IMG/VR virus record: IMGVR_UViG_3300028169_000002
Span: 1 to 37,455 of that record
Source of the DNA: a virus
DNA length: 37,455 nt
Strand: one strand, 5' to 3'
The translations under genes and the position numbers were made by a program. The notes beneath the pieces were generated by a model. It did no database searches and was not told the DNA's origin. It worked only from the letters and a program-made list of their open reading frames with translations. Below, in pieces: positions 19,702-37,455 of the stretch (the first letter of the stretch is position 1; the number at the start of each line of letters is the position of its first letter).

Positions 19702-20022
19702 ATGCTAAATAAACTATTAACCAAATTCACTACTCTAAAGGTCTACGCTCAAAGGAGTTTATTATATTATCAACTTCTAAATTCTGCTATGATAATATTA
19801 ATCTTTGCAGGACAGAGAGGATTTCCTTTATATTTACAAATAGGACTATTAATAGTTTCGGCAGGAATAATATTAACAATAGGATACTTTGATACAAAAC
19901 TTAAAATCTTAGAGAGGGAACAGGCACATTTTAATAAAGAAAACGATTATGTACAAATGATGAAAAGGTCTGTTCCTGAAATTTTAGAAAGATTAGAAAA
20001 AATTGAAAGGAAAGTAAAATGA
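19702..20022 (+). CDS. Membrane protein (106 aa)
   Basis: Two hydrophobic segments (about residues 22-37 and 43-62) are followed by a charged coiled coil running to the end, so the C-terminus is probably cytoplasmic. It is coupled to the methyltransferase gene by an ATGA overlap and so belongs to the glycan-type cassette that follows. Function unknown. Confidence 0.55.
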   Translation: MLNKLLTKFTTLKVYAQRSLLYYQLLNSAMIILIFAGQRGFPLYLQIGLLIVSAGIILTIGYFDTKLKILEREQAHFNKENDYVQMMKRSVPEILERLEKIERKVK

Positions 20023-20615
20023 TTAAGAAGATAATATTTTTCGCATTACAAATAATATCTAAATTTATGGGTAGGCGTTTTTTAAAACGAAAGGAAATCT
20101 TTTTAAATGTTGGGGCAGGGAATATTAAGGGGGTTGATAATTGGATTACTATTGATAGACAGTTGAAATGTGATATTATTTGGGATTTACGCAAGGGGAT
20201 TCCTTTCCTAACTAACAGTGTTTCAAAAATATATTCGCATCATTTTCTTGAACATCTAACTTATAAAGAGTGTCAAAAGTTTTTGGATGAATGTTTGAGG
20301 GTTTTAAAAATTGGTGGGGAGTTTTCGGTTAGTGTCCCTAATATTAGGGTACATATTAACGCTTATCTAAATTCAGATATGGATAAGAAGTGGTTTGGGT
20401 ATAAACCCGCTTATAATAATACAACAAGGATAGACCATTTAAACTATGCTTTTTATATGGATGGACACCATAAGTATATGTTTGACGAAGAAAACTTAAT
20501 TTATATTTTAAATACTAAATTTAATAATGCACAGATAAGGGAGTTTGACCCAGATATAGATAATGAGGAGGTTAGATTCGCTTCTATTTATGCAAGAGCT
20601 ACAAAATGGGAATAG
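20019..20615 (+). CDS. SAM-dependent methyltransferase, glycan/lipid type (198 aa)
   Basis: Residues 28-34 (L-N-V-G-A-G-N) form the SAM-binding glycine loop; D46 follows a second strand; H-H-F-L-E-H-L and the C-L-R-V-L-K-I-G-G-E-F region are typical of small class I methyltransferases found in polysaccharide gene clusters. A hydrophobic N-terminal segment may associate with the membrane. It is followed by two membrane microproteins and a glycosyltransferase, so the substrate is more likely a sugar than DNA. Confidence 0.72.
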   Translation: MIKKIIFFALQIISKFMGRRFLKRKEIFLNVGAGNIKGVDNWITIDRQLKCDIIWDLRKGIPFLTNSVSKIYSHHFLEHLTYKECQKFLDECLRVLKIGGEFSVSVPNIRVHINAYLNSDMDKKWFGYKPAYNNTTRIDHLNYAFYMDGHHKYMFDEENLIYILNTKFNNAQIREFDPDIDNEEVRFASIYARATKWE

Positions 20616-20758: not shown

Positions 20759-20838
20759 AATTTGACGAGGTTGATATATTGAAGTGGTGGACTATTATTT
20801 TAATTTTAGCAATTATTATAATGATAATTTTTAAATGA
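20755..20838 (+). CDS. Membrane microprotein (27 aa)
   Basis: A short charged start (K-F-D-E-V-D) is followed by one membrane helix that fills the protein. Both ends make ATGA overlaps, with the 50-residue microprotein before it and the glycosyltransferase after it. The coupling is the main evidence. Confidence 0.45.
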   Translation: MKFDEVDILKWWTIILILAIIIMIIFK

Positions 20839-21665
20839 CAACAGCATTAATAATATTCGCTTGGCGTAGACCAGAGCATTTAGAGAGGTGTTTAGAAGCG
20901 GTTAAAAGGAATAGATTAATTCCTACTTACATTTTTTTAGATGGTGGGTACACAAAAGAGGTTTTTGATGTAGCTGAAAATAATATGACAGGGAATTGTA
21001 TAGTCGCTTGGAATGAAGAACACTTGGGATTAACAAAATCTATTTTCAAAGGAATAGAAAGAGCATTTAATCTTTACGACTCCGTCATAGTCTTAGAAGA
21101 TGATATTCTAATAGCTGACAACTTCATAGAATATATGCTTGAAGGATTAGAATATTACAAAGACAAAAAAGACATAGGAACTCTAACAGGGTATAATTAC
21201 ATAGAACATAACGAAGTTTACGGAGCTAAAAGATTCACCGGCTGGGGCTGGGCGACTTGGAAAGACCGTTGGGAGGAATTCAATCAAGAATTAGAACCTT
21301 TGGATCATTGGGGAGAGGACATTCCTCCGGGATTTGACAGAGCGACAAAAACCAAAGACACTTGGGATTACCAATTTTCAGTTACGCACAATTTTAAAAA
21401 TTGGAAATGTGTCCACCCCCCGAAGTCTTTAGTAAAAAATATCGGTATGGATGGAAGCGGAACACACTTTAAAAAGAAAAGCACTAAATTTGACACCGAA
21501 CTAAGCAAAGTAGAACCTGATTTTAAATATCCTTTAGAAATTGACGAAAGAATAAGATTAGAGTTTGTCAAGAAAAACAAATTAAGTTTACAAAAAAAGA
21601 TAATTAACTTTTTAAAATCATTAAGGAGAAACAATGAAAAGACCAGACCTCTTTCCAGAAGATGA
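20835..21665 (+). CDS. GT-A-fold glycosyltransferase (276 aa)
   Basis: The N-terminus A-L-I-I-F-A-W-R-R-P-E-H-L is a nucleotide-sugar binding start, E-D-D at residues 88-90 (within V-L-E-D-D-I) is the metal-binding motif, and G-W-G-W-A-T-W (136-142) is a conserved acceptor-side motif of GNT-I-like/family 2 relatives. It would transfer a sugar to a glycan, the virion or a host structure. Its neighbours are a methyltransferase and two membrane microproteins. The 3' end overlaps the next small gene by 32 bases. Confidence 0.75.
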   Translation: MTTALIIFAWRRPEHLERCLEAVKRNRLIPTYIFLDGGYTKEVFDVAENNMTGNCIVAWNEEHLGLTKSIFKGIERAFNLYDSVIVLEDDILIADNFIEYMLEGLEYYKDKKDIGTLTGYNYIEHNEVYGAKRFTGWGWATWKDRWEEFNQELEPLDHWGEDIPPGFDRATKTKDTWDYQFSVTHNFKNWKCVHPPKSLVKNIGMDGSGTHFKKKSTKFDTELSKVEPDFKYPLEIDERIRLEFVKKNKLSLQKKIINFLKSLRRNNEKTRPLSRR

Positions 21666-22838: not shown

Positions 22839-22894
22839 TTAACTGGAAATCAAAAATAGTAAAGGTCTCAGACCTTAAAGAGTACAGAATATGA
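22835..22894 (+). CDS. 19-residue ORF resembling a ParB N-terminus
   Basis: It is joined by ATGA overlaps to the ORF before it and the ParB-like gene after it. Its V-K-V-S-D-L-K-E-Y-R-I resembles the first strand and box of ParB-type nuclease domains, which often precede an N-P-R motif. The ParB-like gene itself begins with another strand and then N-P-K-N-P-R. It may be a leader peptide or a displaced former start. Confidence 0.35.
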   Translation: MINWKSKIVKVSDLKEYRI

Positions 22895-23442
22895 AAAAAC
22901 TATCAACAATAAAACTTAATCCAAAGAACCCCAGACTTATCAAAGATGCGAAGTTTAAAAAACTTTGTGAGTCGATTAAAAAAGATTCTAAATTCTTAGA
23001 ACTCCGTCCTATAATAATTGACAAAGATAATATTATACTCGGTGGGAATATGAGATTCCGGGCATTAAAAGAATTAGGTTATAAAGAAGTTCCTAATAAC
23101 TGGATTAAAAAAGCTACAGATTTAACAAAAGCGGAAAGAGAACGATTTATTGTAAGAGATAACATTGAATTTGGAGAGTTCGATTTCGATATGCTTGCAA
23201 ATGATTTTGAATTTGAGGATTTGAAAGAGTGGGGGTTTGAGGAATGGGAGTTGGGGGTTGATTATAAGGTTCCGATTGAGTTTAACACACTGGGTGAATT
23301 TATTAAAAAGAATACAGATATTTTCGGGGTTACTTTTTATTTTAAAAATGAATTAAAACCAAAGTTTGATAAGTATGTAAAGGAACACTCAAAAGAAAAA
23401 CTTAGGAAAATATTGGAGGCTAAAATTGATAAATGCGGGTAG
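22891..23442 (+). CDS. ParB-like nuclease-domain protein (183 aa)
   Basis: Residues 7-60 show the ParB N-terminal fold: I-K-L-N-P-K-N-P-R, then P-I-I-I-D, then G-G-N-M-R-F-R-A-L (51-59), the conserved nucleotide-binding box. The C-terminal half is acidic. In many phages this domain is fused to an adenine methyltransferase; here the methyltransferase is a separate gene at 25010. It overlaps the radical SAM gene by 17 bases. The domain may bind or cut DNA or bind CTP; true partition genes (ParA) are absent. Confidence 0.75.
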   Translation: MKKLSTIKLNPKNPRLIKDAKFKKLCESIKKDSKFLELRPIIIDKDNIILGGNMRFRALKELGYKEVPNNWIKKATDLTKAERERFIVRDNIEFGEFDFDMLANDFEFEDLKEWGFEEWELGVDYKVPIEFNTLGEFIKKNTDIFGVTFYFKNELKPKFDKYVKEHSKEKLRKILEAKIDKCG

Positions 23443-24472
23443 TCAAATAATACTTTGTGATTTACCAGTAAGGTTAGATAATTATGTAGGGTGCGGACAC
23501 GCTTGTAGTTATTGTTTTGTTAATAGGAAAATTGATATATCGAAAATAAAACCAGTAGAAAGCGGAAAGTCTTTATTGAAATGGATTAAAGGTGGGCGGA
23601 GTAGGGAACTATCTATGTTTGATTATGACATACCTTTACACTGGGGCGGGTTGTCAGACCCCTTTCAACCGTTAGAAAAACAAACAAGGGACTCCCTTAA
23701 ATTATTAAAAATATTTATTGAAAGCCAATATCCTGTTGTTATTTCGACAAAGGGGATTTGTGTAAAAGAAAAGCAATACATTAATGCTTTAAAAAATATA
23801 AGAGGGGTTTTGCAAGTTTCGTTAAGCTGTAAAGAGGTTGAGAGATACGAACAAAAAGCCCCAATATTTAAAGAAAGGTTAAGTATTGTTGAAAGTCTTT
23901 CAAAATATATCAGAGTAAATATAAGGGTACAACCATTTTTCCCTCAGTATTTTAGTTCTATATTAAAAAATATAAAACTGTTTGCTGATAGTGGTGCTTA
24001 TGGTGTGATATTTGAAAGTATAAAATATTTATCTAAACAAAGGGGTTGTGAAAAACTCGGTGCAGATTTTGTGTACCCAATTAATATTTTAAAACCAATG
24101 TTTCTTAGATTGAAAAACGAATGTCATAAGTATGGTCTGAAGTTTTATAGTGGTGAAAACAGATTGAGAAAGTTAAGCGATAATTTGTGTTGTTGCGGTA
24201 TTGAAGGGCTTGGATTTAAAACACATACAAATAATTTAAACCATATATTTTTTGAGAAAGAGTTTAAAGCAGAGCAAACAGCGGGGCAGTTAGCGGAGTC
24301 TGTTGCGGTACGATTAAACCAAAGAACAACAACACAAAGGGCTGTTAATAAAGCAAGTGCGATAAGTAGGTTACATCAGGACTCAATAGCTGACTCAATG
24401 TCTTACGAAGATTTTATAATCCAACTATCAAAAATAAAGCAATACCAAGACATAATGGGATTAAATAATTAA
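23426..24472 (+). CDS. Radical SAM enzyme, spore-photoproduct-lyase-like (348 aa)
   Basis: Cys23-x3-Cys27-x2-Cys30 (C-G-H-A-C-S-Y-C) is the iron-sulfur motif of radical SAM enzymes. G-L-S-D-P-F-Q-P-L-E-K and P-V-V-I-S-T-K-G follow, a pattern shared with the spore photoproduct lyase-related subgroup. A C-C-C cluster lies near residue 256 and a polar tail after 290. The TTG start is supported by GGAGG eight to nine bases upstream. It overlaps the ParB-like gene, so the two are co-translated. The substrate is unknown; placement next to packaging genes suggests DNA or a virion protein. Confidence 0.75.
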   Translation: MINAGSQIILCDLPVRLDNYVGCGHACSYCFVNRKIDISKIKPVESGKSLLKWIKGGRSRELSMFDYDIPLHWGGLSDPFQPLEKQTRDSLKLLKIFIESQYPVVISTKGICVKEKQYINALKNIRGVLQVSLSCKEVERYEQKAPIFKERLSIVESLSKYIRVNIRVQPFFPQYFSSILKNIKLFADSGAYGVIFESIKYLSKQRGCEKLGADFVYPINILKPMFLRLKNECHKYGLKFYSGENRLRKLSDNLCCCGIEGLGFKTHTNNLNHIFFEKEFKAEQTAGQLAESVAVRLNQRTTTQRAVNKASAISRLHQDSIADSMSYEDFIIQLSKIKQYQDIMGLNN

Positions 24473-24504
24473 TAATAAGTTTTATCCAAACTCTAAAACA
24501 GAAA

Positions 24505-24568
24505 AGCAAGCCTCCTTCGACCTCGAAAGGGGATTTTCTCGAATGATATTTGAAAGCGGGGGCTTGTT
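24505..24568 (+). ncRNA. Folded element between the radical SAM and small terminase genes
   Basis: An 11-bp stem (24505-24515 with 24558-24568, two wobbles) encloses a TTCG/CGAA hairpin (24516-24519 with 24524-24527) and a weaker hairpin. No T tract follows, so it is not a classical terminator. It may be an RNA control element or a DNA site recognised by the terminase (pac or cos). Confidence 0.5.
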
Positions 24569-24608
24569 ATTAATTGACACTAAAAGAATTTAGAATTAAA
24601 TTAAGATT

Positions 24609-25013
24609 ATGGTAAAGAAAAAACCAATAAAGAAGCCTGCAATAAAAGTTCAAAAAACTTCAAGGATGCGGAAAGATAAAAAGTTAAATATGACTTTAAT
24701 CCGTGATGCTATCCTAAAATATATGAAAGAACAAAAGAAACCACCTACGGCAGTTGAACTTTCAAAACAATTAGGAATATCAGCGGAAACAATTGGAAAG
24801 CATATATCTAATATGTCTTTTGATACCGAAAAGAGTATATGGCGTTCTTTAACTCCCGATGTAGTCGCTTCTATTTTATCAAGCTGTAAAAAAGGAAGTT
24901 CCGCAAGTCAAAAGTTATGGATGCAGATATTTGAAAAATTCAGTGAACGTCAGGAACTCACAGGCAAAGACGGAGAACCTTTAATAACAGAAGTAAACGT
25001 AACAATTAAATGA
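24609..25013 (+). CDS. terS: Small terminase subunit (134 aa)
   Basis: Residues about 45-70 form a helix-turn-helix (T-A-V-E-L-S-K-Q-L-G-I-S-A-E-T-I-G-K-H-I), and the C-terminus E-L-T-G-K-D-G-E-P-L is a typical small-terminase tail. It recognises the phage genome and recruits the large subunit. The first 25 residues are very basic. A methyltransferase gene is wedged between it and the large subunit. The start of the methyltransferase overlaps its stop as ATGA. Confidence 0.78.
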   Translation: MVKKKPIKKPAIKVQKTSRMRKDKKLNMTLIRDAILKYMKEQKKPPTAVELSKQLGISAETIGKHISNMSFDTEKSIWRSLTPDVVASILSSCKKGSSASQKLWMQIFEKFSERQELTGKDGEPLITEVNVTIK

Positions 25014-25684
25014 GTTCTTATCTTAACATAGATTGTATGGAAGGTATGAAAGAGTATCCTGATAAGTATTTTGAGCTGGCAATCGTGGACCCTCCGTATA
25101 ATGTTGGGGCTTGTGATGGCAATTTCGGTGGTAAAAAATCAGCTCCTTCAATAGTCAGTGGTAAAATAAATGCAAGGGCATATCAAAATGGGGATAAAAC
25201 TCCTGATAAAAATTATTTTAATGAATTATTCAGGATAAGCAAAAACCAAATAATTTGGGGGATGAATTATTATCCTCAGTATTTATATCACAGTGGAGCG
25301 GTTATATGGGATAAACTGAATGATAAAAACAAGGTCTTATCTGACTGTGAAATAGCTTTCCAAAGTTTTAATAAATTAGTAAGAATATTTAGGTGTGCTT
25401 GGGGGGGATTTAATAAAGACGACGAAAGCGTTTCTTTAAAAGTTAGAGTACACCCTAATCAAAAACCTGTCAAGCTCTATACATGGCTTTTAACCAACTA
25501 CGCAAAGACAGGAGACAAGATATTAGACACTCACGTCGGAAGCGGAAGCAGTATCATAGCATTTGAAAAGCACGGATTTGAATATGTAGGATTTGAGATT
25601 GATAAAGATTATTACAATGACAGTTTAAAACGGATTGAGAAACATAGAGAACTTTTAATGCAAGAAACAATATTCAATGATTGA
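25010..25684 (+). CDS. DNA methyltransferase, beta-class N6-adenine/N4-cytosine type (224 aa)
   Basis: The catalytic motif D-P-P-Y is at residues 27-30 and the SAM-binding D-T-H-V-G-S-G-S-S at 173-181, the beta-class order. H-P-N-Q-K-P-V-K-L (148-156) is also characteristic. D-P-P-Y favours adenine N6 methylation. There is no restriction enzyme beside it, so it probably protects or marks phage DNA. It lies between the two terminase genes and overlaps both, which ties modification to packaging. Confidence 0.85.
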   Translation: MSSYLNIDCMEGMKEYPDKYFELAIVDPPYNVGACDGNFGGKKSAPSIVSGKINARAYQNGDKTPDKNYFNELFRISKNQIIWGMNYYPQYLYHSGAVIWDKLNDKNKVLSDCEIAFQSFNKLVRIFRCAWGGFNKDDESVSLKVRVHPNQKPVKLYTWLLTNYAKTGDKILDTHVGSGSSIIAFEKHGFEYVGFEIDKDYYNDSLKRIEKHRELLMQETIFND

Positions 25685-26837
25685 AGGAACTTCTTTAAAT
25701 ATAGAAGCGAGTCGAATATTTACTTTAAATAAAGACTCTACAAAGAAAATCAAATGTAACGAAGGCGGTGCAAGAAGTACTAAGACTTATTCAATCTTAC
25801 AAGTATTAAGTTTTGTTAGAGCCTTAAACGAAACAGGACAAATCTATACAATAATAAGAAAGACTTATAATGCTTTACGTGATACCGTTATGAGAGACTT
25901 CTTTGATATACTCAATGCACAAGGAATGTATAGAGAAGCTAATCATAATAAATCTAATTCAGAATATTTATTAAACGGAAATCTAATTGAGTTCAGAGGA
26001 TTGGATCAACCACAAAAAAAGAGGGGCTCTAAGCGTAAAAGACTTTTTGTCAACGAAGCCAATGAAATAAGTTTAGAAGATTGGATGCAGTTAATAATGA
26101 GAACAACGGGAGAGGTTTTCTTAGACTACAACCCCTCAGAAGAATTTAGCTGGATATATGACAAAGTAATACCAAGAGATGACTGCGAATTAATCCACTC
26201 AACCTACAAAGATAATAAATTCTTAGAAAAGGAAATCATAGACGAGATTGAAAGATTAGAGGTTGCTGACCCTGACTATTGGGAAGTGTACGGATTGGGA
26301 CTGAGAGGAAAAGCTAAAGAGTTGATTTATTCTAACTGGGGTGTATTTAAAGAACTCTCACAGAAAATAGATGAAACTTTTTACGGATTAGACTTTGGTT
26401 ATACAAACCCTACCGCCTTAGTTAAAATTGATTTATGCGATACGCTTCCTTATATGACAGAAATGTTATACAGAACACACCTAACAACCCCGATGATAAT
26501 TACTGAACTTGAAAATTTAAAAGTTAATAAATCAGATTACATTTATGGAGATAGTGCTGAGCCTGGCAAGATAGAAGAAATATCACAAGCGGGATATAAT
26601 ATACACCCTTCCGATAAATCTGTTTCGGATGGTATAGAGTTCTGTCAAAGGAAAAGAATGTTTATTCAAGGTGCTAACTTAGAAAAAGAAATCAAATGCT
26701 ATAAATGGAAAGTAAACAAAGACGGAGTAATTTTAAAAGATGACCCTGTTAAATTTAATGACCACTTATGCGATGCTTTTAGATATGCAAGATATACACA
26801 CACTAAACAACCCTCCTATGATATAGGGTGGGTGTAG
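25677..26837 (+). CDS. terL: Large terminase subunit (386 aa)
   Basis: The ATPase domain has Walker A G-G-A-R-S-T-K-T (30-37) and a Walker B region R-L-F-V-N-E-A-N-E (122-130). The nuclease domain has G-L-D-F-G-Y (D239), Y-G-D-S-A-E (D292) and N-D-H-L-C-D-A (D362, D366), the acidic triad of the RNase H-like terminase nuclease. It belongs to the Terminase_3 / PBSX-like type. It pumps DNA into the prohead through the portal encoded just downstream. Confidence 0.93.
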   Translation: MIEGTSLNIEASRIFTLNKDSTKKIKCNEGGARSTKTYSILQVLSFVRALNETGQIYTIIRKTYNALRDTVMRDFFDILNAQGMYREANHNKSNSEYLLNGNLIEFRGLDQPQKKRGSKRKRLFVNEANEISLEDWMQLIMRTTGEVFLDYNPSEEFSWIYDKVIPRDDCELIHSTYKDNKFLEKEIIDEIERLEVADPDYWEVYGLGLRGKAKELIYSNWGVFKELSQKIDETFYGLDFGYTNPTALVKIDLCDTLPYMTEMLYRTHLTTPMIITELENLKVNKSDYIYGDSAEPGKIEEISQAGYNIHPSDKSVSDGIEFCQRKRMFIQGANLEKEIKCYKWKVNKDGVILKDDPVKFNDHLCDAFRYARYTHTKQPSYDIGWV

Positions 26838-33704: not shown

Positions 33705-33964
33705 TTTTTAAAGATATTACAATATTAGAGATGTTTGAAACGAATGGAGATGGCTTTTATATTGTTCGTAGACTTGATGGTATAAAAATAGGAGAAATAT
33801 GGTTAAAACCAGAACCGTTCTTTTTATCACTTAGTCCTAATATGGCGTGGCGTATGAATGAATTGGAATATATAATTAATTTTTGCAAAGGAGATGTTTA
33901 TTCTCCAGATAAGGTGTTTGGAAAAATATTTTATGAAAATTGTAAATCATTAGGAAATGATTAG
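33701..33964 (+). CDS. Hypothetical protein coupled to a glycosyltransferase (87 aa)
   Basis: The protein has several Phe, Trp and Met and no recognised motif. It overlaps the gene before it by ATGA and the glycosyltransferase after it by 8 bases, so it may work with that enzyme. Confidence 0.5.
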   Translation: MIFKDITILEMFETNGDGFYIVRRLDGIKIGEIWLKPEPFFLSLSPNMAWRMNELEYIINFCKGDVYSPDKVFGKIFYENCKSLGND

Positions 33965-34961
33965 TGCTTGTTTAATATTGTACAACTGTGAAAAGTGGAT
34001 TGCAAAGACAATTGAATCTATAATCCCTCACGTTGATGAAATTATTTGTGTTGTTGATGAAAAGTCAAATGATAACACAGAAGATGTTTTAATGAGTTGG
34101 AAAGTTGATTATGAAATTAACATAAAGATTTTCAAAAGAAAGTGGAATGACAACTTTGCAGATGCTAAAAATTATGCAATAAGTAAAGCAAGCGGAGATT
34201 ACATATTATTTATTGAAGGGGATGAAATATTATTTGCTAAGACTCCTTTAAAAAACTATATAGAGTTTTCTGAAAAAAGAGGTGCGGGTGCTTATGCTTT
34301 TAAAATTCATAATCAAGATAACAAAGGGCGTAAAACAATCTTTAAAAATATAAGACTGTTTAAAAACATTCCTGAAATTTATTATGAGTTTGAAAAAGAT
34401 GCTGTAGTTGATAGGACTGTTTTAAAAGCGGGTTATAAGATTGCTCAAATAGAAGATATTTATGTAGAACACAAAGGACATATATTACCAGACAAGAAAA
34501 TGATTCCTAAACTTGAAAAGCAAATAGAACTTTTATTTAAGCAGTTAAAAAACGAACCTAAAAACAGTATGGTAAATTTCCATATTGGAGAAACTTATCA
34601 AATATTGCATAACTTAACTAAGAAAGAAAATTATTTATCAGATGCTATTACGTTTTTAAGTTTAGCAGCAACAGATGGACTTTATACTGGCTCAAAGGCG
34701 ATGTGCTTTTATAGACTTGCAAGATTATATTATGATACTGGAAGTTACGGGGTTTGCACTCAATACATCGAAAGGTCTTTAGAGTTAATCCCTAAACAAG
34801 TTTCAAGTAGGGCTTTAATGTTTCTTATTTTAAAAAATAACGGATACAATAAAGAGGCTCAAATAGAAGCTGACAAGATTAAAAAAATAAATGGTAATTC
34901 AATGTTACCAAACGACAGATATTATTCTGAAAAAGAATTAACTGATATTTTCAAAAATTAA
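33957..34961 (+). CDS. GT2 glycosyltransferase with TPR-like C-terminus (334 aa)
   Basis: The GT-A core shows S-A-C-L-I-L-Y-N-C-E (3-12), D-E-K-S-N-D-N-T (34-41), N-F-A-D-A-K-N-Y-A (66-74) and L-F-I-E-G-D-E (84-90). The metal site is E-G-D-E where D-x-D is usual. Residues about 195-310 form helical TPR-like repeats, as in SunS-type peptide/protein glycosyltransferases. It sits among head-tail structural genes, suggesting virion protein glycosylation. Confidence 0.78.
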   Translation: MISACLILYNCEKWIAKTIESIIPHVDEIICVVDEKSNDNTEDVLMSWKVDYEINIKIFKRKWNDNFADAKNYAISKASGDYILFIEGDEILFAKTPLKNYIEFSEKRGAGAYAFKIHNQDNKGRKTIFKNIRLFKNIPEIYYEFEKDAVVDRTVLKAGYKIAQIEDIYVEHKGHILPDKKMIPKLEKQIELLFKQLKNEPKNSMVNFHIGETYQILHNLTKKENYLSDAITFLSLAATDGLYTGSKAMCFYRLARLYYDTGSYGVCTQYIERSLELIPKQVSSRALMFLILKNNGYNKEAQIEADKIKKINGNSMLPNDRYYSEKELTDIFKN

Positions 34962-36892: not shown

Positions 36893-37455
36893 TAAAAATT
36901 TAGAAATAAAGATAAAACCTAAAGTAATAGGTAAAAATGAATTTACCTCTCTTGCAAGTGCTTTAGATAAGATTAATAAATCTTTAACAGGGATTCATAA
37001 AGCAAGTATAGTAACTTCTAAAAGCACAAAGACTTTAGCGACTGCAAAAAAGAAGTTATCTAAAGTGAATATGACTTTAGTAAAAGGCTCACAAGCTCAC
37101 ATCCAGCAGCTAAAAAGACTTCAAAAGGGTTTGAGCACTACTTCTAAAAGATACCATACATTACAAGCAGGGATTAAAAAATATACTGCTGCACAACGAC
37201 AAGCAAAAGGAAGTACAGGCATATTCAATGCAGGTCTAATGAATATGGGTAAAAATTTATCTGCAATCGGAATTGGTATTGGAATGGCAATTACTAAATT
37301 AATGCAATTGGGTAGGGTTGTTTTGAGAATTGCTAAAACTGTTGTAAATGCTTTTGCTAAACAGGAATTATCTGTAATGAAGTTAAGAAGTGTTCTAAAA
37401 CTTACTGGAAGTGAAGGGAGTCTAAAAGTATTAACTAAACAAGCGGCAGATTTAC
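36882..37455 (+). CDS. Tape measure protein, N-terminal part (continues at base 1)
   Basis: The ATG at 36882 overlaps the previous gene's end. The frame is open to the window end and continues at base 1 (37320 equals base 1), giving about 146 residues before the joined part. It starts with a basic beta/helix segment, then Lys/Ala/Ser-rich helices and a hydrophobic stretch (about 125-150). No start codon nearer to base 1 is needed. Together with 1-1932 it forms one gene. Confidence 0.85.
   Translation, partial: MASSKNLEIKIKPKVIGKNEFTSLASALDKINKSLTGIHKASIVTSKSTKTLATAKKKLSKVNMTLVKGSQAHIQQLKRLQKGLSTTSKRYHTLQAGIKKYTAAQRQAKGSTGIFNAGLMNMGKNLSAIGIGIGMAITKLMQLGRVVLRIAKTVVNAFAKQELSVMKLRSVLKLTGSEGSLKVLTKQAADL
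37320..37455. repeat. Terminal direct repeat, right copy (matches 1-136)
   Basis: Identical to bases 1-136 except position 37329 (a) against position 10 (g). It marks the end of the unique genome unit at about base 37319. Confidence 0.95.

Follow-up and report, generated by a model that had tools for sequence, protein, structure and literature searches.

The stretch of viral DNA analyzed here (the window, 37,455 nucleotides, positions 1 to 37,455 of IMG/VR record IMGVR_UViG_3300028169_000002) carries a ParB-like gene abutting a radical SAM (rSAM) gene, followed by the terminase genes. This ParB-rSAM-terminase order is a real, conserved module that extends beyond one phage and beyond chance, and the cassette occurs in many uncultured viruses whose hosts are gut bacteria or other anaerobes. 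We read the ParB-rSAM pair, with a probability of about 0.68, as a DNA-modification cassette of two genes, belonging to tailed phages whose hosts are mostly anaerobic and acting by the steps proposed below; it probably adds an oxygen-independent chemical mark to viral DNA.

The genes of the cassette and of the terminase stretch were first checked on the window sequence and its translations (Table 1). A first-pass annotation, made from the letters alone, had given their order, coordinates and motifs and had noted that most neighbours overlap; all genes were found at these positions, with overlaps of 17 nt (ParB/rSAM), 4 nt (TerS/methyltransferase) and 8 nt (methyltransferase/TerL), and with 136 nt between rSAM and TerS. 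TerL exceeds the cut-off of its TIGR01547 model (128.7 bits, cut-off 105). The methyltransferase contains an IVDPPY motif and passes the cut-off of PF01555 (E=5e-14, 53.1 bits, cut-off 26.7). The HTH match of the small protein that precedes it is weak, and the identity of TerS is therefore assigned by position.

Table 1. Cassette and terminase features of the window, with the evidence for each.
Feature	Positions	Strand	Evidence
ParB/Srx-fold protein, 183 aa, first cassette gene	22891..23442	+	PF02195, PHROG ParB families, Foldseek ParB/Noc, rSAM adjacency
Radical SAM (rSAM) enzyme, 348 aa, TTG start, SPL-like fold	23426..24472	+	Pfam, NCBIfam, PHROG, alignments, AF2 and Foldseek
Hairpin, 11-bp stem, between rSAM and TerS	about 24505..24568	+	Folding z-scores
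Small HTH protein, putative TerS	24609..25013	+	HTH_11 (E=1e-4), position before TerL
DPPY DNA methyltransferase, N6/N4 family, optional accessory	25010..25684	+	PF01555, phrog_23224
TerL, PBSX type, landmark adjoining the cassette	25677..26837	+	TIGR01547, PF04466

The ParB-like protein belongs to the ParB/Srx fold superfamily. It matches PF02195 (ParB_N) with E=2.9e-5 and 24.5 bits, slightly below the Pfam cut-off of 26.3, and Foldseek associates its AF2 model with ParB, Noc and sulfiredoxin structures (best E about 1e-3). In the region of the G-x-x-R motif, G52 is invariant and R55 is at least 90% conserved in the ParB alignment. The 54-row version of this alignment was too diverse for scanning, and a tighter subset (A5) was used instead. 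Assignment as a partition protein was rejected, the TIGR00180 score being 15.3 bits for a cut-off of 58.45.

The second protein belongs to the radical SAM superfamily by motif, sequence and fold. Its start codon has a GGAGG just upstream. The cluster motif CxxxCxxC (C23, C27, C30) is invariant in a 57-row alignment (A2), PF04055 (Radical_SAM) is matched with E=5e-6 and 27.2 bits, under the gathering cut-off of 29.5, and the AF2 model (pLDDT 88.5) has a radical SAM fold that matches many rSAM structures in Foldseek. Among the relatives C11 and C256-C257 are also invariant, and R167 and E197 are conserved; C11 and the C-terminal Cys-Cys may bind a second iron-sulphur cluster. The closest sequence relatives are of the COG1533 type (PA0069, Rv2578c, rSAM_mob_pairB; NF033668 at E=1e-11, profile match 99.5%), which share the DP[YF]Q motif and GCxHxCxYCF with the window protein. 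Membership of the PA0069/Rv2578c families was rejected (44.4 bits for a cut-off of 360, and 27.1 for 430). The cellular members of this type differ from the window protein: the Cys-Cys is lacking (gap in 94%), position D18 is Asn, and R167 and E197 are not conserved. Among phage families, phrog_13321 is hit by the window rSAM and by each of the three rSAM subfamilies; it covers just part of the 340-aa proteins and carries no assigned function or context.

PDB sequence searches with the rSAM, with the A2 and A6 profiles and with a transglycosylase-like protein gave nothing significant, so that a fold search was needed. A search of BFVD structures found no close named relative. In the PDB, the six best fold matches are to spore photoproduct lyase (SPL; SplB, TIGR04070, PDB 4FHC), with E about 1e-8 and a TM of 0.55, a moderate similarity. 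SPL is itself an rSAM enzyme acting on DNA. The predicted structure thus bears out the SPL type proposed in the first-pass annotation as far as the fold is concerned; repair of the SPL kind is not borne out. The two proteins have in common the radical SAM barrel, T108-K109, E142, R151, P170 and E197, and ten clostridial SPLs all have an upstream Cys at the position of C11. We take the thiol hydrogen donor of SPL to be the Cys before TSD in the B. subtilis type and the upstream Cys in the clostridial type. At the position of the former the window protein has Gly75, and clostridial SPLs have Ala or Ser. The C-terminal third is unrelated in sequence and contains a Cys-Cys-Gly absent from SPL. Despite its nearest fold, the window rSAM is not an SPL, since the C-terminal Cys-Cys that is invariant here is missing from SPL and from the cellular relatives. 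It is quite unlikely that this enzyme reverses thymine lesions in phage DNA as a repair protein. The SPL fold, the aligned C11 and a 281-aa sister subfamily with weak matches to SPL models and to a PHROG called DNA repair photolyase would suit such a role, but the TIGR04070 search of the window's record (E<=0.001) came back empty and the NCBIfam matches do not include this model, Gly75 takes the position of the catalytic Cys of the B. subtilis type, the partner genes are base modifiers rather than repair genes, and many of the hosts come from dark habitats.

The conservation of the pair was then analyzed. With the window rSAM protein as the start, 76 distinct viral or prophage relatives were recovered; an IMG/VR scan with this single protein returned zero relatives, and the family opened once one distant homologue was added to the query (A1). 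The loci were mostly fetched through the rSAM, and their frequencies are therefore conditional on it: of the 68 loci whose upstream sequence is long enough, 61 have the ParB-like gene directly adjoining the rSAM and 65 have a ParB no more than 2.5 kb upstream, and TerL is found up to 2.6 kb downstream in 56/65 loci. Two Clostridia genomes (G001 and G171) also carry the cassette next to phage genes. The association with terminase genes in relatives, a check proposed together with the original observation, is thus borne out. TerL as bait retrieved nothing beyond a fragment (L003) whose TerL is identical. No true member of the rSAM family was found among the 50,697 named phage records searched, which indicates that standard annotation has missed the cassette. 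That the adjacency is due to chance, or was simply inherited within one phage lineage, is highly improbable. Some clusters of near-identical contigs do exist, and phage gene order around the terminase is generally conserved, but the distinct rSAMs have a median identity of 50% and stand beside three groups of terminases without matches to each other.

The slot next to the pair is variable: a PLP enzyme occupies it at 23 loci, a small SAM synthetase at 4 and Mom at 2, and it can also be empty. On the rSAM tree the PLP label changes 13 times, at least 10 of which are forced by well-supported branches, whereas ParB-rSAM remains constant, a further argument against hitch-hiking. With the PLP enzyme as bait, the rSAM was upstream in 31 of 33 loci (close subfamily with upstream sequence present, by our own count). 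In the window a DPPY methyltransferase lies between TerS and TerL. Its separation from ParB, remarked upon earlier, is true here, but the real unit is the abutting ParB-rSAM pair; a methyltransferase occurs at 2/76 loci only and is optional. As the helper genes differ, one product shared by all members is doubtful. A constant pairing of a C5 methyltransferase with the 281-aa subfamily was not retained; it was seen in L002 and L247 but at none of the other loci tested.

The ParB was also used as bait, built from the ParBs linked to the rSAM, which gave 80 loci. Behind or fused to ParB were found N6/N4 methyltransferases, C5-type methyltransferases, TET-associated glycosyltransferases (TAGT), queuine-transglycosylase-like enzymes, Mom, or the rSAM. 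The window genes thus sit in a ParB-linked modification neighbourhood. As in phage ParB-methyltransferase fusions and hypermodification clusters, the ParB domain is near the terminase and is followed immediately by, or fused to, the modifying enzyme; the partner is a separate rSAM here, whereas it is a methyltransferase or a dioxygenase there. Published examples place a ParB near the CmoX carboxymethylcytosine enzymes (PMC12783734) and within a cluster for thymidine hypermodification (PMC11955845). Since the rSAM shares the place behind ParB with known DNA modifiers, phage DNA is its most likely substrate, by guilt by association. The DNA-base modification role suggested at first gains support in this way from the slot and from its neighbours (Mom, methyltransferases, SAM synthetase, glycosyltransferases). 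A step just before packaging, suggested with it, does not: the terminase neighbourhood is the usual place of ParB-linked modification genes in these phages. We consider it unlikely that the rSAM acts on a protein or an RNA (terminase, ParB or a host factor, for example) with ParB as carrier or regulator. Its place beside the terminase is constant and the fold matches after SPL include the peptide-modifying SkfB, SuiB and Mmp10, but DNA methyltransferases, TAGT and Mom occupy the same slot, the neighbouring terminases fall in mutually unmatched groups, and no SPASM-like C-terminus was recognised in the rSAM.

Under the DNA-modification reading, the ParB/Srx-fold protein would be a DNA-engaging, nucleotide-binding partner, as it apparently is beside phage DNA methyltransferases. 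With its [4Fe-4S] cluster and SAM, the rSAM would generate a 5'-deoxyadenosyl radical, which may abstract hydrogen from a base of the DNA or from the methyl group of a base, opening the site to attachment of a new group. Thymidine hypermodification probably includes a radical SAM step. Among the helpers, the SAM synthetase may supply SAM, the PLP enzyme an amino-acid-derived or sulphur precursor, and Mom or a methyltransferase a second mark. The mark would shield phage DNA against host nucleases. The gene order and its conservation, the cysteines specific to the clade, the predicted fold and the slot held in common with known DNA modifiers are observed here; from these we infer DNA as the substrate, a radical reaction, what ParB and the additional cysteines do, and the protective effect. 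Free nucleotides or SAM-derived signals, handled by a counter-defence or nucleotide-pool enzyme with viperin-like chemistry, are a very unlikely substrate: viperin-like enzymes appear among the fold matches, a SAM synthetase is found at some loci and the ParB/Srx fold binds nucleotides, but the viperin match is weaker than that of SPL (E about 1e-4 vs 1e-8) and the neighbour genes act on DNA.

Several routes to hypermodified phage DNA start from modified nucleotides made beforehand or from a dioxygenase that requires oxygen, and oxygen is not dependable for phages of strict anaerobes. To our knowledge the DNA chemistry of such phages has been little explored. The proposed modification cassette may serve as an analogue of the TET/JBP dioxygenases that does without oxygen. 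In a more speculative version, which we put forward tentatively, the clade with C11 and Cys-Cys would install a novel base anaerobically in replacement of TET/JBP oxidation, be targeted by ParB and be diversified by the PLP enzyme, SAM synthetase or glycosyltransferase. With its cysteine signature and swappable helpers, the cassette is a handle for a new DNA base and a new radical DNA reaction, and for the restriction or defence systems evaded. It also suggests a general role of the ParB domain as an adaptor of phage DNA-modifying enzymes.

Some features of the window stand apart from the conserved pair. The stem between rSAM and TerS gave z=-2.5 on a hand-picked 71-nt segment and z=-1.5 to -1.7 over the wider gap, and an Rfam search of the window matched no family, hairpin included; it is thus a possible RNA element with a modest signal. 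A tRNA search of the window found none. The window rSAM has a 15-residue insertion (310-324) missing in nearly all relatives. A protein 45% identical to the window methyltransferase was found at one other locus (L067), where it is placed after TerL.

The gene order around the terminase of the window, i.e. ParB-like, radical SAM (rSAM), small terminase subunit (TerS), methyltransferase and large subunit (TerL), was exactly that described by the first-pass annotation. The stability of the hairpin is mildly above that of shuffles (z of -2.5 for a hand-picked 71 nt, -1.5 to -1.7 for the wider gap). As about 136 bases, with one mismatch, are common to both ends of this 37,455-base virus contig, the contig probably covers the whole of a circularly permuted genome of about 37.3 kb; the end repeat is not recorded for this record.

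Features of the ParB-rSAM cassette and its surroundings in the window
Feature	Position	Remark
End repeat	1-136 and about 37320-37455	
SAM methyltransferase (Methyltransf_11)	20019-20615	upstream of the cassette
Family 2 glycosyltransferase	20835-21665	upstream of the cassette
ParB-like gene	22891-23442	overlaps the rSAM gene by 17 nt
rSAM gene	23426-24472	TTG start preceded by GGAGG
Hairpin		within the 136-nt gap between the rSAM and small HTH genes
Small HTH gene	24609-25013	TerS by position
DPPY methyltransferase	25010-25684	overlaps the small HTH gene by 4 nt
Large terminase	25677-26837	overlaps the DPPY methyltransferase by 8 nt
Glycosyltransferase-like gene	33957-34961	amid head genes; assigned by sequence reading

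The conservation of the ParB-rSAM pair was analyzed. A scan of IMG/VR with the single window protein gave no relatives; an alignment of this protein with one distant homologue gave 344, of which 80 were fetched. Further loci were obtained from assembled genomes by a genome scan, and 76 distinct loci were left once identical proteins had been removed. ParB counts were restricted to loci with at least 650 nt of upstream sequence: a ParB-like gene abuts the rSAM gene in 61 of 68 (from a 38 nt overlap to a 51 nt gap) and is no further than 2.5 kb away in 65 of 68. The upstream ParB genes number two in 27 of 63 loci, and TerL starts at most 2.6 kb downstream of the rSAM in 56 of 65. Since the neighbouring terminases form three groups without mutual match (51, 6 and 5 members) and the median identity among rSAM proteins is 50%, these loci are not one phage lineage repeatedly sampled: the pair is conserved beyond a single lineage. 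No published description of it was found in the searchable literature, which omitted key papers of the field.

Genes located behind ParB were surveyed in 80 loci, using as bait seven ParB proteins, all from rSAM loci; representatives of the partner families were checked with Pfam and PHROGs. Downstream of ParB, or fused to it, we observed an N6/N4 methyltransferase (26 members in one cluster), a queuine-transglycosylase-like enzyme (10), TET-associated glycosyltransferases (TAGT; three clusters with 6, 2 and 1 members, the two-member one identified solely from its sequence), the 340-aa rSAM (5), Mom (3), a C5-type methyltransferase (3, assigned by sequence reading) and a PAPS-reductase-like protein (1), the remaining partners being families without clear role. 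About 20 of the 80 loci encode an rSAM of some kind. As DNA modifiers are found in this place, the rSAM occupies the slot of a DNA-modifying enzyme, which supports the DNA modification initially proposed; the link to packaging proposed with it is not supported. The cassette would be a variant of ParB-linked phage DNA modification. While the gene order, its conservation, the slot in common with DNA modifiers, the cysteine signature and the predicted fold are shown by the data, we infer the substrate, reaction and purpose of the rSAM: most likely, ParB would engage DNA and the rSAM would carry out a 5'-deoxyadenosyl-radical reaction on a DNA base. That it modifies protein or RNA instead is improbable. 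A ParB-like gene is included in a thymidine-hypermodification cluster (PMC11955845), and the literature offers a parallel in CmoX carboxymethylcytosine enzymes, which have ParB nearby, its role there being likewise not known (PMC12783734).

The first-pass annotation had placed the enzyme with spore photoproduct lyase (SPL), a repair enzyme. SPL provides the six best PDB fold matches (E about 1e-8, TM 0.55) of the AF2 model of the window protein (pLDDT 88.5, pTM 0.88), and in the alignment with ten clostridial SPLs C11 falls on a Cys that all of them share. However, the SPL model gives no hit to the protein, Gly75 occupies, by our motif reading, the position of the catalytic Cys of B. subtilis-type SPL, and an extra C-terminal Cys-Cys is present, so that SPL-type repair is not supported and a role in DNA repair is unlikely. 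The phage rSAM profile matches that of cellular PA0069/Rv2578c-kind homologues with 99.5% probability, versus 68% for clostridial SPL. Of these cellular homologues (n=67) 94% have a gap in place of the Cys-Cys region; Asn stands at D18, and neither R167 nor E197 is conserved. Their residue at C11 depends on the alignment, being mostly Ser in one and Cys in about half in another. Besides the 340-aa family, the phage islands also hold 281-aa and roughly 430-aa rSAM subfamilies, and C11, CxxxCxxC, R167, E197 and the C-terminal Cys-Cys are common to all three. The phage rSAMs are a distinct, chemically unexplored enzyme clade, in which C11 may donate hydrogen or, together with C256/C257, belong to a second cluster. 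In one phage (L061:4601-7023) a single ParB gene is flanked by the 281-aa and 340-aa subfamilies.

Helper genes, which would provide either SAM or the moiety that is attached, are variable. A PLP enzyme of fold-type II, related to D-cysteine desulfhydrase and ACC deaminase, lies within 4 kb of the rSAM in 23 loci, nearly always directly downstream. On a tree of 63 rSAMs, where the window protein has a long branch of its own, the PLP label changes 13 times, and well-supported branches force at least 10 of these changes; this helper was therefore repeatedly gained and lost while the pair persisted. With PLP bait, an rSAM is upstream in 31 of 33 close-subfamily loci having upstream sequence (manual count), and upstream of none of the distant homologues. 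A short SAM synthetase is present in four loci, Mom proteins near two, and related methyltransferases in the window (between TerS and TerL) and in locus L067 (after TerL). Free-nucleotide chemistry by the rSAM has a small probability. The short synthetases (L047, L061, L072, L074) measure 263-267 aa against a 377-position model and are filed under phrog_1569, a family without assigned function. DUF5131, a different radical-SAM-like protein, is encoded 3-6 kb upstream in L026, L034, L041, L092 and others.

7-deazaguanine DNA modification involves a transglycosylase-like gene accompanied by a Vut_1-type transporter. In loci inspected in full this transporter gene comes next after the transglycosylase-like gene; four loci (L246:4498-5958, L247, L254, L269) have a stand-alone ParB followed by both, near terminase, presumably a compact 7-deazaguanine island. 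In two others (L249:3989-8569, L303:1171-4802), ParB, a TAGT-type glycosyltransferase, the roughly 430-aa rSAM and an adjoining SAM synthetase stand in a single row and may form an oxygen-free pathway to glycosylated DNA.

Among 50,697 named phage records there were remote sister proteins only and no true family member. The cassette rSAM is encoded in two of 391 genomes from the class to which G001, a Lachnospiraceae assembly, belongs, in both cases beside terminase and other phage genes. Assembly titles in the genome scan name Clostridia, Ruminococcus, Lachnospiraceae, Saccharibacteria, Termititenax, Planctomycetes, Phycisphaerales, Bacteroidota and Cloacimonetes; many of these are anaerobes, in which an oxygen-dependent TET/JBP step would be expected to fail. 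One locus, Dulem virus 31 (PP511318.1), encodes terminase, portal and capsid proteins on 35.8 kb, but its record is assigned to Microviridae, apparently a taxonomic mistake.
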